Of a stretch of DNA of 64,000 nucleotides, positions 31,227-37,994 are shown piece after piece. The stretch's first letter is position 1. Each line of letters starts with the position of its first letter. The notes below the pieces were generated by a model. It was given only the letters and a program-made list of their open reading frames with translations. It was not told where the DNA came from and ran no database searches. Made by a program: the position numbers and the translations under genes. Origin of the DNA: Acidipila rosea (GTDB taxonomy: Bacteria > Acidobacteriota > Terriglobia > Terriglobales > Acidobacteriaceae); contig NZ_SMGK01000002.1 in assembly GCF_004339725.1 (NCBI RefSeq), positions 558,001 through 622,000 of the forward strand, given 5' to 3'.

Positions 31227-32675
31227 TTAATCGTTTGATCTGGCGTCATCCAGTGGCAGCCAGAAGGCGAAATCCGCTCCCCTGCCCTCGTGGCTGATGA
31301 AGTCAATGCCACCGCCCTGCGCATGGAGGATAGCCCTGATGATCGCGAGCCCCATTCCGGTGCCGGGCGTTCGTTCGCGTTCGCGAACGCCGCGGTAAAA
31401 CTTGTCGAAGATAAAGGGGCGATCCTCGTCGCGAATCCCGCGTCCGTGATCGAGCACATGAAGCACCAGCCGCTCCTGCTCGATCGTCGCGCTGATCTTC
31501 AGCGGTGCTCCTACCGGCGAATACTTCACCGCATTCTCCACCAGGTGGCGCAGCACCTGCCGGAAGAGTTCACCGTCGATATTCACCGCCGGTATCTCCG
31601 GCTGCAGCTGCAGGTTGACCTCGCGCCCGCGGAGCTGCTCCTCCGCATCGCTCAGCACTGCGTCAATCAGCGGTCGCAGCTGCTGCCGCTGCCGCTTGAC
31701 ACGGACATTCTCCGTATCCAGCTGGGCCATGCGCACGGCCTGCCCGACAAGCCCATCGAGCCGCCGCGTCTCCTCCTCCACCACCGCGTACATCTCCGCA
31801 CGCACCGCCTCAGGCAGGTCAGGCTGCGAGATCAGCGACGTTGCCGCCGCTCGAATCGATGTCAAAGGGGTGCGCAGCTCGTGAGTGATCGAATCCATCA
31901 GCGCTGCACGCAGGCGCTCGCTCTCCTGCGCCGCCTTCAGATGGCCCGACTGCTCCAGGACCGATGCGCGCTCCAGGGCTATCGCGACCAGGCCCCCTAT
32001 GGCGCTCGCCATCTCCGGCGCGCATTCGCTTCCGGCGATCGCCAGCAGCCCCAGTCTTCTCATGCCCAGCATCAGGGGAACAACGCGCACAGCATTCATC
32101 TCGTCCACGCTGCCGTTCTTCGCCATGCTTCGCAGCTCGGCTACCGGGAGCAGCTCGTTTTCAGGATCTGAGTAGTAGGCTTCGTCCTGCGCATCCACAT
32201 AGAGAGCGACTGCTCGCAGCGAGAAGATGCGCGCCACCAGCGACGGCGCAGCACTCGCCAGCCCGGGAAGATCGATCAACAAAAGCTGCTGGCTGAACTC
32301 ATAGAGCTGTTCCACCTCAAGCCGGCGTGTCTCCGATGCCTCTGCCTGCCTTCGCGCCTTGTCTGACAGGTGACTCACCAGCATGCCCGAGCCGAGAAAC
32401 GCCGTCAGCGTCACCCAGTTCTCGGGATCGGCGATCGTCAGCCGTCCGACCGGCGGCAGGAAATAGTAGTTATAAAGCAGCGTGCACAGCAGCGAGAGAT
32501 AGACGGAGTAGACCAGCCGCCATCGCGACGCAGCCGCCATTACCAGCACGAGAAAGCTCAAAGCGACCGTCGTCTGGTTCACATGCAGCGCTCGGCGAAA
32601 GACCCACACCATCAGGAACGCCAGCGCGGTGCTGCCTGTATAACGCAGAAACACGATGCTGAAATTCGTTCTCAT
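31227..32675 (-). CDS. KdpD-like sensor histidine kinase lacking the N-terminal KdpD/USP domains
   Basis: A 482-residue kinase. It starts at once with a four-helix DUF4118 membrane region (about 5-105, VYSVYLSLLCTLLYNYYFLPP). A GAF-like region follows (about 130-240), then HisKA with the phospho-acceptor H265 (SITHELRTPLTS), and HATPase_c with VENAVKYSP, DHGRGI and GTGMGLAI. Full KdpD proteins carry about 400 more N-terminal residues (KdpD and USP domains) that are missing here; stop codons upstream rule out a longer frame. ATG 32675 has no Shine-Dalgarno; TATCAT lies 9 nt before it. It is divergent from kdpE and is its likely partner. Confidence 0.9.
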   Translation of the reverse strand: MRTNFSIVFLRYTGSTALAFLMVWVFRRALHVNQTTVALSFLVLVMAAASRWRLVYSVYLSLLCTLLYNYYFLPPVGRLTIADPENWVTLTAFLGSGMLVSHLSDKARRQAEASETRRLEVEQLYEFSQQLLLIDLPGLASAAPSLVARIFSLRAVALYVDAQDEAYYSDPENELLPVAELRSMAKNGSVDEMNAVRVVPLMLGMRRLGLLAIAGSECAPEMASAIGGLVAIALERASVLEQSGHLKAAQESERLRAALMDSITHELRTPLTSIRAAATSLISQPDLPEAVRAEMYAVVEEETRRLDGLVGQAVRMAQLDTENVRVKRQRQQLRPLIDAVLSDAEEQLRGREVNLQLQPEIPAVNIDGELFRQVLRHLVENAVKYSPVGAPLKISATIEQERLVLHVLDHGRGIRDEDRPFIFDKFYRGVRERERTPGTGMGLAIIRAILHAQGGGIDFISHEGRGADFAFWLPLDDARSND

Positions 32676-32684
32676 CCAGCCGCG

Positions 32685-32697
32685 ATGATACTGTATC
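32685..32697. promoter_or_regulatory. Palindrome and overlapping divergent -10-like boxes between kinase and kdpE
   Basis: The whole gap between the two start codons is 28 bp. At its centre is the perfect palindrome GATAC-T-GTATC (32687-32697). A minus-strand TATCAT (32690-32685) lies 9 nt before the kinase ATG, and a plus-strand TACTGT (32689-32694) lies 9 nt before the kdpE ATG. Confidence 0.45.
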
Positions 32698-32703
32698 CCG
32701 TGT

Positions 32704-33396
32704 ATGGCTGAACGTATTCTTATCGTCGACGATGAAGTCCAGATCACCCGGGTGCTGCGCGCCTCCTTCGCCGCGCAGGGCTATGATGTGCGCGCCGTCA
32801 ACGATCCGGAAGAGGCCCTGCGCGTCATTGCCGAATGGCCGCCGGACCTCATCCTCACCGATCTCATGATGCCCGGCATGACCGGCGTCGATCTCTGCCG
32901 TGCCATCCGCGCTCGCAGCACAACGCCGGTCCTGGTGCTCTCCGTGCGCGACCATGAACGCTCCAAGATCGAGGCACTCGACGCAGGCGCCGACGATTAC
33001 GTCACCAAGCCTTTCAGCATGCAGGAGCTTATGGCGCGGGTGCGCGCTCATCTGCGCCGCGCTCCTGAGCGCAGCAGCAACGCACCCCTGCAGACAGGCG
33101 ATTTCCTGATCGACATCGCGGCTCACAGCGTCACCGTCGCAGGCCAGCCGATTCATCTCACGCCGAAAGAGTTTGACCTGCTGCTTCATTTCGCCCGCAA
33201 TGCGGGCAAGGTGCTTACCCACCGCGCTTTGCTCACCGCTGTCTGGGGCGCCGACTCCGCGCAGCAGTCGGAGTATCTGCGCGTCTTTGTAGGACAGCTG
33301 CGAAAGAAGCTGCTCGCCAGCTCCCCACGGGAATACCTGCAGACCGAGCCATGGGTGGGCTATCGCTTTCTTCCCGAAGGCGCTCCCGAGCTCTGA
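32704..33396 (+). CDS. kdpE: KdpE response regulator (OmpR/PhoB family)
   Basis: Activates the kdp operon when phosphorylated. The 230-residue protein has a receiver domain with acidic residues DDE near the N-terminus, phospho-acceptor D53 (LILTDLMMPG) and the conserved lysine in YVTKPFS. The C-terminal winged-helix domain (about 130-228) has HLTPKEFDLLLHFARNAGKVLTH and YLRVFVGQLRKKL, characteristic of KdpE. It precedes the kdp structural genes by 66 nt and is divergent from its probable kinase, rather than following it as in most bacteria. Confidence 0.93.
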   Translation: MAERILIVDDEVQITRVLRASFAAQGYDVRAVNDPEEALRVIAEWPPDLILTDLMMPGMTGVDLCRAIRARSTTPVLVLSVRDHERSKIEALDAGADDYVTKPFSMQELMARVRAHLRRAPERSSNAPLQTGDFLIDIAAHSVTVAGQPIHLTPKEFDLLLHFARNAGKVLTHRALLTAVWGADSAQQSEYLRVFVGQLRKKLLASSPREYLQTEPWVGYRFLPEGAPEL

Positions 33397-33400
33397 ATCT

Positions 33401-33427
33401 TTACGATTTCCTTATGCCGCGCTTACG
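33401..33427 (+). promoter_or_regulatory. Possible KdpE operator: TTACG direct repeat
   Basis: TTACG occurs at 33401-33405 and again at 33423-33427, 22 bp apart, i.e. two helical turns, inside the 66-nt gap between kdpE and the first kdp ORF. Direct repeats at this spacing are usual for OmpR-family regulators. Assignment to KdpE is inference from position. Confidence 0.35.
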
Positions 33428-33462
33428 CCTGATTTAGAGCCCAGGCGATCTACTAAAGCGTT

Positions 33463-33549
33463 ATGGCAGACCTGATCGCAATTCTTGGCACGCTCGCCTT
33501 CTTCGTCATAGCGCTGCTCTATGTCGAAGCCTGCGAAAGGCTCCGGTGA
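33463..33549 (+). CDS. 28-residue single-pass membrane microprotein at the head of the kdp operon
   Basis: ATG 33463 opens a 28-codon frame. The protein starts MADLIAILGTLAFFVI, continues as one hydrophobic helix with LLYVEAC, and ends in the charged ERLR. It ends 7 nt before kdpF, and a GGTGA in its last codons can act as the kdpF ribosome-binding site. It has the size and shape of KdpF but not its PERF ending, so it is a different peptide. It could be a second small subunit or stabiliser of KdpFABC, or a leader peptide. It is shorter than usual annotation limits. Confidence 0.65.
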   Translation: MADLIAILGTLAFFVIALLYVEACERLR

Positions 33550-33556
33550 CCGGCGC

Positions 33557-33646
33557 ATGAGCATCCTCACCATCCTCATCCTGCTTCTCACCGTGGCCGT
33601 CTTCGGCTACCTTGTGGCCACCCTTCTCTTTCCGGAGCGCTTCTGA
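33557..33646 (+). CDS. kdpF: KdpF, small subunit of the potassium-transporting ATPase
   Basis: A 29-residue membrane peptide: MSILTILILLLTVAVFGYL followed by VATLLFPERF. The YL...P-E-R-F ending is the KdpF signature. KdpF sits beside KdpA and stabilises the complex. Its TGA overlaps the kdpA ATG by one base (33646), which implies translational coupling. Confidence 0.88.
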   Translation: MSILTILILLLTVAVFGYLVATLLFPERF

Positions 33647-35364
33647 TGACGCCGAATGGCTGGCTTCAGTTCCTTGTCTTCTTCGCGGCGCTGCTGCTGC
33701 TCAGCCGTCCGCTCGGCATCTACATCGCCCACGTCATCGAGGGCGGCAAGACATTCCTCGATCCCGTGCTCCGGCCCATCGAGCGCCTGATCTACCGCAT
33801 CAGCGGCATCGAGGCTGAGGAGATGAACTGGCGCGAATATGCAGGCGCAATGCTCCTCTTCAGCTTCGCCTCGCTTGCGTTGACCTACCTCGTCGAGCGG
33901 GCGCAGCATTTTCTCCCGTGGAATCCGCAGCATCTGCCCGGCGTCGCGGCCGATCTTGCATGGAACACGGCCGCCTCCTTCACGACGAACACCAATTGGC
34001 AGGCGTACACGCCCGAGTCCACCATGAGCTACTTCACGCAGATGGTTGGACTCGCGTATCACAACTTCTTGAGCGCAGCCGTAGGCATCGCCGTAGCAAT
34101 TGCGCTCGTCCGCGGCATCATCCGCAAGCAGTCTGCCAGCATCGGAAACTTCTGGGTCGACATCACGCGCACGACCCTCTACCTGCTGCTGCCGCTCTGT
34201 CTGCTGCTGGCCCCGGTGCTCATTGAGCAGGGCGTCGTCCAGAATCTCAAGCCGTACACCGCCGTCTCCACGCTCGACCACGGCCAGCAAACCCTCGCAC
34301 AAGGTCCTGTGGCCTCGCAGGAGGCGATCAAGATGCTGGGCACAAATGGCGGAGGCTTCTTCAACGCCAACAGCTCACACCCTTTTGAAAATCCGACACC
34401 CCTGACGAACTTTCTTGAGATGCTGTCGATCTTCCTCATCCCCGCTGCGTTGGTCTTCGCGCTGGGAGAGATGACCGGCTCGCCGGGACATGGCCGTGCT
34501 GTCTTCGCTTCCATGGCTATGCTCTTCATCGCGGGCTTCCTGACGATCTACTGGGCGGAGTCGCAGCCGCACCCGCTGCTCCACCACGTCGATCAACACG
34601 TCAGCGCACTCCAGTCAGGCGGCAACATGGAGGGCAAAGAGGTTCGCTTCGGCATCTCACAGTCCGCGCTCTTTGCCGCTGCAACTACGGATGCGAGCTG
34701 CGGCGCCGTCAACTCCATGCACGACTCCTTCACCCCGCTCGGCGGCATGGTCACGCTGGTCAACATCATGCTAGGCGAGATTGTCTTCGGCGGCGTCGGC
34801 TCGGGCCTCTACGGCATCCTCATCTACGTCGTGCTCTCCGTCTTCATTGCCGGACTCATGGTCGGACGAACGCCGGAGTATCTCGGCAAAAAAATAGAGA
34901 GCTTCGACGTCAAGATGGCCATGCTCTACGTGCTCATCTTTCCGCTCATCATCCTCGTGCTCACCGCGATCTCGCTGCTTTCGCCGATGGGTCTGGGCAG
35001 CCTCAACAACAGCGGTCCCCACGGGCTCACCGAGATTCTCTACGCCTTCACCTCCGCTGCCGGCAACAACGGCTCAGCCTTTGCCGGGCTCAGCGCCAAT
35101 ACGCACTGGTACAACTATTCCCTCGGCTTCGCCATGCTGATCGGTCGCTTCCTGATGATGGTTCCCGTGCTCGCGCTCGCAGGCAACCTTGCGCAGAAGA
35201 AGAGTGTTCCGCCCTCGCATGGAACCTTCCCGGTGAACACGGCGCTCTTTTCGCTGCTGCTGACCGGCATCATCCTCATCGTTGGCGCGCTGACCTTTTT
35301 CCCTGCGCTCAGCCTTGGGCCGGTTCTCGAACATCTCCTGCTCCACGCAGGCCACCTCTTCTAG
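33646..35364 (+). CDS. kdpA: Potassium-transporting ATPase subunit A
   Basis: The K+-channel-like subunit of KdpFABC. The 572-residue protein has about ten membrane segments. The four selectivity-filter-like P-loops are recognisable: TAASFTTNTNWQAY, LGTNGGGFFNANSSHPFENPTPL, CGAVNSMHDSFTPLGG and TSAAGNNGSAFAG. The start overlaps the kdpF stop and kdpB follows after 21 nt. Everything expected of an active subunit is present. Confidence 0.97.
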   Translation: MTPNGWLQFLVFFAALLLLSRPLGIYIAHVIEGGKTFLDPVLRPIERLIYRISGIEAEEMNWREYAGAMLLFSFASLALTYLVERAQHFLPWNPQHLPGVAADLAWNTAASFTTNTNWQAYTPESTMSYFTQMVGLAYHNFLSAAVGIAVAIALVRGIIRKQSASIGNFWVDITRTTLYLLLPLCLLLAPVLIEQGVVQNLKPYTAVSTLDHGQQTLAQGPVASQEAIKMLGTNGGGFFNANSSHPFENPTPLTNFLEMLSIFLIPAALVFALGEMTGSPGHGRAVFASMAMLFIAGFLTIYWAESQPHPLLHHVDQHVSALQSGGNMEGKEVRFGISQSALFAAATTDASCGAVNSMHDSFTPLGGMVTLVNIMLGEIVFGGVGSGLYGILIYVVLSVFIAGLMVGRTPEYLGKKIESFDVKMAMLYVLIFPLIILVLTAISLLSPMGLGSLNNSGPHGLTEILYAFTSAAGNNGSAFAGLSANTHWYNYSLGFAMLIGRFLMMVPVLALAGNLAQKKSVPPSHGTFPVNTALFSLLLTGIILIVGALTFFPALSLGPVLEHLLLHAGHLF

Positions 35365-35385: not shown

Positions 35386-37419
35386 ATGACAGAAAAACAA
35401 AGTCTCTGGAACCCGGTAATTCTTCGCCAGGCCGTCATCGGCTCATTCACCAAGCTCGACCCGCGCCTCATGGTCAAGAACCCTGTGATGCTGGTTGTCG
35501 AGGCAGGCAGCCTGCTCACCACTGCGCTGCTCGTTGTCGATGCGCTCCACCACAGGCCGGGCTTTCGCTTTGACCTGCAGATCACGCTCTGGCTCTGGTT
35601 CACCGTGCTCTTTGCGAACTTCGCAGAAGCCATTGCCGAAGGCCGTGGCAAGGCCCAGGCAGACACGCTTCGCAAAGCCAAGGGCGAAACGATGGCTTAC
35701 CGCTATCGTCCCGACGGCTCCTTTGAGGCTGTATCCAGCGCAGCGCTCCGCACCGGCGATGTCATCAAGGTGGAGGCAGGCCAGTTCATCGCAGGAGACG
35801 GCGAGGTCGTCGAGGGCGTCGCCTCCGTCGATGAATCCGCCATCACCGGCGAGTCCGCGCCCGTTATCCGCGAAGCCGGCGGCGACCGCTCCGCCGTCAC
35901 CGGCGGCACGCGCGTGCTCTCCGACTGGATCAAGATTCGCATCACGTCCAACCCCGGCGAGACTTTCCTCGATCGCATGATCGCGCTCGTCGAGGGCGCA
36001 AGCCGCCAGAAGACGCCGAATGAGATTGCGCTGAGCATCCTGCTCTCCGGCCTCACCATCATCTTCCTGCTGGCGGTCGCAACGCTGCAGCCCTTCGCCA
36101 TCTACTCTCACGCACCGCAGACGATGTTCGTGCTCGTCTCGCTGCTCGTTTGCCTTATCCCCACCACGATCGGAGGCCTGCTCTCCGCTATCGGCATCGC
36201 AGGCATGGATCGCCTCGTCCAGTACAACGTGCTCGCCATGTCGGGCCGCGCCGTTGAGGCAGCGGGCGATGTCAACACGCTGCTGCTCGACAAGACCGGC
36301 ACCATCACTCTCGGCAATCGTCAGGCGACGGAGTTTTTCGCCGCACCCGGCATCAGCACCGAGCGACTCGCCGACGCAGCTCAGCTTGCCTCGCTGTCTG
36401 ACGAGACGCCGGAGGGGCGCTCCATCGTCGTGCTGGCCAAGGAGAAGTACAATCTGCGCGGCCGCGACCTCACCCACATGCGCGCCGAGTTTGTCGCCTT
36501 CACCGCGCAGACGCGCATGTCCGGCGTAGACCTGCCCGGCACAAGCATACGCAAAGGCTCCGCGGATGCCATCGCCCGTTACCTCGAGCAGCAGGGCTCT
36601 TCCATGCCGCGTAAGGTTACAGACAAGGTAGAGGAGATTGCGCGCCTGGGCGGCACGCCGCTGGTTGTCGCGGAGAACGAGACCGCGCTCGGTGTGGTCT
36701 ATCTCAAGGACATCGTGAAAGGCGGCCTCAGCGAACGCCTTGCGCGCCTGCGCGCCATGGGCATCCGCACCATCATGATCACCGGCGATAACCCCCTGAC
36801 CGCGGCAGTCATTGCTCGCGAAGCGGGCGTAGATGACTTCCTCGCCGAGGCAAAGCCGAAAGACAAAATGGACCTCATCAAGCTGGAGCAGAGCAAGGGT
36901 AAGCTGGTCGCGATGACCGGCGATGGTACGAACGACGCGCCCGCGCTCGCGCAGGCCGACGTGGGCGTAGCGATGAACTCCGGCACGCAGGCTGCGAAAG
37001 AGGCCGGCAATATGGTCGATCTCGACTCCAACCCGACCAAGCTCATCGAGATTGTAGAGATCGGCAAGCAGCTCCTGATGACGCGGGGCGCGCTCACCAC
37101 GTTCTCCATCGCCAACGATGTCGCAAAATATTTCGCGATCATTCCGGCCATGTTTGCCGGCGTCTTTCCCGTGCTCAACGCGTTGAACGTGATGCATCTC
37201 GCCACGCCGCATTCGGCCATTCTCTCGGCCGTCATCTTCAATGCGCTTATCATCATCGCGCTGGTGCCCCTCGCTCTGCGCGGTGTCCGGTACGAACCGA
37301 AATCGGCGCAGGCGCTCTTGCGGCGCAACCTGCTCGTCTACGGTGTCGGCGGCATCATCGTGCCGTTCCTCGGCATCAAGCTCATTGACGTGGTCATCAA
37401 CTCGCTCCACCTGGTCTAA
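35386..37419 (+). CDS. kdpB: Potassium-transporting ATPase subunit B (P-type ATPase)
   Basis: The ATP-hydrolysing subunit. The 677-residue protein has the phosphorylation motif DKTGT with D302, the actuator TGES (T154-S157) and the hinge [17 protein letters not shown]. The serine of TGES is the residue known in E. coli KdpB to be phosphorylated for inhibition. AAGGAG lies 11 nt before the ATG. It belongs to kdpFABC, and kdpC follows 11 nt after the stop. Confidence 0.97.
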
Positions 37420-37430
37420 AAGGCGCTTCT

Positions 37431-37994
37431 ATGAAAAAGACCCTGTTCATCTCGATTCGCTTTACGCTGCTCACGGCTGTGCTGCTCGGCGTCGCTTATC
37501 CGCTTGCCGTCACTGCCTTCGCGCACTACGCCATGCCGCGCCAGGCTGACGGCAGTCTGCTTTCTGTCGACGGCCACATCGCGGGCTCGCAGCTCATCGG
37601 CCAGCAGTTTACAGGCGACAGATATTTTCACGGCCGTCCCTCTGCCGCGGGCAACGGCTACGATGCCACTTCATCCGGCGGCTCCAACTTCGCGCAGTCG
37701 AATGCAAAGCTCGTTGCCCGCATCAACCACGATGCAGCTGAGGATGCGGCGCGTACGGGCAAGCCCGCGCCCATCGATCTGGTCACTGCTTCAGCGTCTG
37801 GCCTCGATCCTGACATCACTCCCGCAGGTGCGCTCTATCAGGTCAATCGTGTCGCCGAGGCGCGGCACATGGACCCCCAGCAGCTGCGCTCGCTCGTGGA
37901 GGCGCACATCACCGGGCGCCAGTTCGGCTTCCTCGGCGAACCTCGCGTCAATGTGCTTGAGCTGAATCTCGCCCTCGACCAAAGCAGCCGGTAG
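37431..37994 (+). CDS. kdpC: Potassium-transporting ATPase subunit C
   Basis: Single-pass subunit that increases the affinity of the complex. The 187-residue protein has an N-terminal membrane helix (about 8-30), then the conserved GQQFTGDRYFHGRPSAAG, SGGSNFAQSNAKL, SASGLDPDITPAGALYQ and the C-terminal LGEPRVNVLELN. It ends the operon. Its stop is 6 nt from the convergent kynU stop and no terminator is seen there, so opposing transcripts may overlap. Confidence 0.95.
   Translation: MKKTLFISIRFTLLTAVLLGVAYPLAVTAFAHYAMPRQADGSLLSVDGHIAGSQLIGQQFTGDRYFHGRPSAAGNGYDATSSGGSNFAQSNAKLVARINHDAAEDAARTGKPAPIDLVTASASGLDPDITPAGALYQVNRVAEARHMDPQQLRSLVEAHITGRQFGFLGEPRVNVLELNLALDQSSR

Follow-up and report, generated by a model that had tools for sequence, protein, structure and literature searches.

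A conserved single-pass peptide encoded ahead of kdpF as a probable fifth, KdpA-bound subunit of the Kdp pump

In this study, we analyzed a peptide of 28 residues encoded at the head of the kdp operon of Acidipila rosea, within a stretch of 64,000 nucleotides (the window). The peptide belongs to a conserved family ahead of kdpF, for which X is our working name. Based on sequence comparisons, X is probably an ancient single-pass subunit of the Kdp pump, the fifth, which binds KdpA and has been lost by E. coli. We also favor, with less confidence, a broader reading: Kdp would ancestrally consist of five subunits (X, F, A, B, and C) in most bacteria, the E. coli pump would be a derived form that lost one of them, and X would complete the KdpA pore domain through a conserved Asp–Arg bridge.

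As described in an earlier note on this DNA, the reading frame of X is complete and encodes a single hydrophobic helix with a charged C-terminus, which reads ERLR (Table 1). Its stop codon is separated from the kdpF start by 7 nt, the distance given in that note, and kdpF is indeed a separate downstream gene with its own PERF ending and a match to PF09604 above the cut-off. The stop of kdpF and the start of kdpA overlap by 1 nt. Neither a promoter nor a terminator matched between kdpE and X. For the KdpD-like kinase, Table 1 gives the longest open reading frame, and the true start is probably near 32675. The genome encodes a single N-terminal KdpD domain (G000:C1:828173-828799), on another contig than the kdp-linked kinase.

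Table 1. Features of the kdp locus, in window coordinates.
Feature	Position	Strand	Description
KdpD-like sensor kinase	31227..32747	-	DUF4118-HisKA-HATPase; lacks the N-terminal KdpD domain; longest ORF
kdpE-like response regulator	32704..33396	+	66 nt upstream of X, same strand
X	33463..33549	+	28-aa single-TM peptide MADLIAILGTLAFFVIALLYVEACERLR; ATG...TGA
X Asp3 codon	33469..33471	+	predicted salt-bridge partner of KdpA Arg85
kdpF	33557..33646	+	29 aa, MSILTILILLLTVAVFGYLVATLLFPERF, ends PERF; PF09604
kdpA	33646..35364	+	572 aa; predicted binding partner of X
KdpA Tyr81...Arg85	33886..33900	+	E. coli positions 78 and 82; predicted end of helix D1M1
kdpB	35386..37419	+	677 aa
kdpC	37431..37994	+	187 aa

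Because no stretch of X is conserved enough for a back-translated scan, loci were gathered through KdpA. The earlier note had proposed a search for short frames ahead of kdpF in related genomes: all 30 kdpA loci of relatives from the same class carry a peptide of 27–33 residues before kdpF, with M1, D3, and C24 invariant. The whole collection is a non-random sample that favored loci with the best KdpA scores and did not reach Bacteroidota; of its 364 distinct kdpA loci, which represent about ten phyla, 285 carry X. The family consensus is M-x-D-[LI]-x-[FMY]...F-F...Y-V-x-x-C-[DE]-[RK]-L. At E<0.01, an iterated profile matched the region upstream of kdpA in 220 of 297 cases, whereas the reverse strands of the same 297 regions gave no match under E = 2, which places the X frame far beyond chance.

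Based on named plasmid loci and a genome scan, X is present in Alpha-, Beta-, and Gammaproteobacteria, Acidobacteriota, Chloroflexota, and Actinomycetota, as well as in Paenibacillus, Myxococcota, Gemmatimonadota, Melainabacteria, and Deinococcus. It is absent from E. coli and other enteric-type loci, Pseudomonas-type loci, cyanobacteria proper, a clostridial/coriobacterial group, Lactiplantibacillus, and Halobacterium. On an unrooted KdpA tree, presence and absence of X require 12 changes, and the X-bearing rows are spread throughout; an old origin followed by several losses would be the simplest reading of this pattern. In six Myxococcota loci (L373, L363, L364, L375, L384, and L417), which are kin of X-bearing species, X is missing and KdpA retains Arg82 (E. 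coli numbering); L417 holds a possible decayed remnant of X, suggesting recent loss. KdpA chains occur in 25 PDB entries and represent three sequences, each as long as E. coli KdpA (557 residues), and all KdpA structures found there appear to come from E. coli. Since this organism lacks X, the peptide could be, and probably was, overlooked for that reason.

X is almost exclusively linked to kdp. A profile search of 247 genomes of the phylum returned 50 matches with E<0.001. Of these, 48 adjoin kdpA, another lies 1.8 kb away from a kdpA with a broken frame, and the remaining one runs to the edge of its contig; the best matches thus fall at a kdp locus in 49 of 50 cases. Similarly, when 7.3 Gb of plasmids were searched by tblastn with the X of Rhizobium, 180 records were retrieved, nearly all unannotated, from Rhizobium, Sinorhizobium, Deinococcus, Azospirillum, Phyllobacterium, and Shinella only, and the first four of these genera are represented in our sample by X-bearing kdp loci. 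Sensor kinases can be the targets of small membrane peptides, as PhoQ is of MgrB, and X might by analogy act on KdpD and not on the pump. We regard this as the least probable explanation: X is present in Rhizobium binae, where neither kdpD nor kdpE is annotated near kdpA, the kinase in the window lacks the KdpD N-domain, which sits on another contig, and the covariation of X is with KdpA.

The earlier note had called the peptide undescribed, and neither Pfam nor NCBIfam nor any of the open-access papers searched describes it. A search with 44 diverse members gave nothing significant, with best E values of 0.047 (Pfam), 0.044 (NCBIfam), and 1 (PDB). In some sequence records, members do carry an annotation, either 'hypothetical protein' or 'potassium ABC transporter ATPase'. 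WP_275451547.1 (Azospirillum), recorded as hypothetical, is a family member in the same place, and the 34-residue X of Mycetohabitans (WP_212667346.1; L068, 2745-2849) bears the ATPase annotation, a misnomer.

X is selected as a protein, as judged from codon comparisons. The bias toward synonymous substitution envisaged in the earlier note was found in all nine groups of related loci, with dN/dS of 0.11-0.47, indicating purifying selection; in the same groups, KdpF gave 0.06-0.35. Moreover, pN<pS held for X in 242 of 243 pairs, which are non-independent.

The position of X at the operon head also raises the question of whether its translation, and not its product, is what matters. The distance between X and kdpF is mostly <20 nt across loci, and stop/start overlaps are frequent (4 nt, 39 loci; 1 nt, 13 loci); this tight spacing makes translational coupling of the two genes plausible. 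The ribosome-binding site of kdpF, which the earlier note had assigned to X, is unconvincing as a Shine-Dalgarno sequence, since GAAAGG (33535-33540), the sole purine run ahead of the kdpF ATG, ends 16 nt before it and is too distant. A translated leader that couples or controls translation of kdpF and kdpA, with the peptide itself secondary, would fit the location and the frequent overlaps. However, the amino acids of X are under purifying selection and covary with KdpA, and in four loci (L074, L075, L290, and L293) the gene order is kdpF, X, kdpA, with the peptide still conserved. In addition, no Rfam family, riboswitches included, matched anywhere in the window, and no terminator-like site was found in 32600-33700. 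We therefore consider such a leader very improbable, and the translational regulator suggested in the earlier note is not needed to explain a peptide whose sequence is conserved and covaries with a residue of a distant protein.

The statement that X is not KdpF was supported. X gave no match to PF09604 or TIGR02115 at E<10, whereas the neighboring KdpF matched at 3.3e-7, and alignment of the two profiles with hhalign yielded probabilities of 0.3 (global) and 3.4 (local). X and KdpF are of the same size, share the same predicted topology, and are encoded by adjacent genes, as would be expected if X were a diverged KdpF duplicate supplying a second KdpF-like helix. Short helices of this kind limit homology tests, including the hhalign values above; however, the conserved residues also differ (D3, FF, C, and [DE]RL in X; Y-L...P-E-x-F in KdpF), and X couples to other KdpA sites. 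Descent from KdpF is accordingly hardly likely.

Several small peptides accompany these genes. In seven Bradyrhizobium loci (L101, L109, L110, L113, L126, L132, and L137), a third small hydrophobic peptide (e.g., LLLADAVLVAGLLALVLPMLRWTQSLKG) lies between kdpF and kdpA, from about 130 to 22 nt before kdpA. L019 has an extra hydrophobic frame of 78 residues between X and kdpF, 364-127 nt before kdpA. Deinococcus sp. AJ005 (L073) lacks X and has a second small peptide, MGILLGLLILLALFGVVAWALKLPENL, after kdpF, 130-46 nt before kdpA, unrelated by eye. The KdpF tail P-E-x-F is present in 200 of 206 X-bearing loci and 13 of 40 X-less loci, the latter having mostly Ala or another residue at the Pro position; we dropped a link between this tail and X, since about five independent pairs (p = 0.5) leave it inseparable from phylogeny.

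We compared KdpA between loci with and without X. Of 147 conserved KdpA columns, position 82 (E. coli numbering; Arg85 in the window) differs most: in the first set, 93% of the loci with X have Arg there, against 7% of those without X; Tyr78 (Tyr81 in the window) ranks second, at 94% and 20%. The 78/82 pair is Y/R in X-bearing loci, whereas X-less loci mostly have F and L/M/V. Among the loci with X, the identity of its third residue follows that of KdpA position 82: an acidic residue occurs with Arg82 in 184 loci and without it in 2, and a non-acidic residue occurs with Arg82 in none and without it in 11. No other KdpA column was as strongly associated with X residue 3 (Fisher 2e-16; the runner-up gave 5e-8); for the X–KdpA covariation as a whole, the effective sample size is only about 150 sequences. 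On the tree, residue 3 switched independently seven times, and Arg82 was concordant in 7/7 (sign test p = 0.016). New loci from Chloroflexota, Myxococcota, and Acidobacteriota gave 93 acidic/Arg pairs and one non-acidic/non-Arg pair, with no clear exception; of two apparent ones, L358 has a shifted alignment (MD at the start) and L371 is a truncated frame with an ambiguous start. A double switch has occurred naturally in the mycobacterial-looking Actinomycetota loci L163-L165, which combine an X that lacks the acidic residue with a KdpA that lacks Arg.

About 14 loci without X, most of them from Myxococcota, nevertheless have Arg82. The prediction that such genomes encode X elsewhere failed, as none was found in 13 genomes that keep Arg82 without X beside kdpA (0/13). 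Arg82 can therefore persist independently of X, at least soon after its loss, and recent loss of X is the likely explanation for these loci.

Mutual information was computed over all pairs of X and KdpA columns. The top pairs were X10-A74, X20-A424, X17-A496, X3-A82, X20-A418, X6-A100, X6-A483, and X13-A490. In the AlphaFold model of the window KdpA (mean pLDDT 85.8), all of these KdpA positions except A100 fall in helices 62-85, 419-445, or 487-517 (window numbering), which we term D1M1, D4M1, and D4M2 by channel-like order. These three helices contain 8 of the 10 best couplings and 15% of the columns. When X was shuffled among loci within 23 KdpA clusters, eight was reached in 0 of 60 trials (mean 4.0). 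When the shuffling was confined to 85 very close clusters, most of the signal persisted, which near-identical rows would lead one to expect. Clade structure accounts in part for the one-face pattern of X.

The couplings also suggest an orientation. They place X antiparallel to D1M1 and D4M1 but parallel to D4M2, as an N-out/C-in helix in one groove would require. In the new phyla alone (Neff 48), the parallel D4M2 diagonal recurs, and the antiparallel D1M1 diagonal is not high-ranked. For comparison, KdpF–KdpA couplings show a less clear pattern, and X couplings to KdpB (first 430 columns) are weaker than those to KdpA.

According to the mechanism that we propose, X and KdpF would be translated together from the head of the kdp operon, and X would insert into the membrane N-out/C-in and pack into a membrane-facing groove of KdpA formed by D1M1, D4M1, and D4M2. 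There, at the outer end of D1M1 and immediately ahead of the first pore helix, Asp3 of X would pair with Arg85 of KdpA (position 82 in E. coli). KdpF has been proposed to stabilize the Kdp complex (Gassel 1999, as cited in PMC12629597). The likeliest job of X would be of the same kind, namely stabilizing or assembling the KdpA pore domain, with tuning of K+ uptake as the alternative. In either case, X is not universally needed, since enterics function without it.

In the main rival explanation, X would not be a constitutive structural subunit but a regulatory micropeptide with a reversible effect on the turnover of the pump, in keeping with its single transmembrane helix, its covariation with KdpA, and its dispensability in several lineages. 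Phospholamban, sarcolipin, and FXYD proteins are single-transmembrane peptides that modulate eukaryotic P-type ATPases. However, X is encoded in the pump operon, usually within 20 nt of kdpF, and should be made with the pump, and its couplings are to the channel subunit KdpA and are weaker to the ATPase KdpB. On these grounds, reversible modulation appears unlikely, though clearly less so than the other rivals. The extra small subunit, one of the two roles suggested in the earlier note, is well supported by the near-exclusive linkage to kdp, purifying selection, and residue covariation with KdpA.

If X is such a subunit, the accepted composition of Kdp, a textbook ion pump, would change, with an additional component in most bacteria other than E. 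coli, among them soil bacteria, symbionts, and probably mycobacteria. X would also explain the conserved Tyr/Arg pair of KdpA that is missing in E. coli. The proposal names a partner and a pair of residues that can be tested directly, and it illustrates that gene finders overlook subunits of 26-30 residues even at famous operons.

Compared with known systems, X most resembles KdpF (PF09604, TIGR02115), a single-pass peptide of about 29 residues from the same operon with the same predicted N-out/C-in topology. In contrast to KdpF, X shows no detectable homology to that family, has other conserved residues, is absent from E. coli, and co-occurs with KdpF instead of replacing it. AcrZ on AcrB and CydX on cytochrome bd are likewise very short single-transmembrane proteins in a groove of a large membrane complex, the placement predicted for X; their sequences and partners are unrelated to those of X, which is tied to Kdp. 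Finally, X would share with phospholamban, sarcolipin, and FXYD the association of a single-transmembrane peptide with a P-type ATPase complex, whereas X is bacterial and couples to the channel-like KdpA and not mainly to the ATPase subunit.
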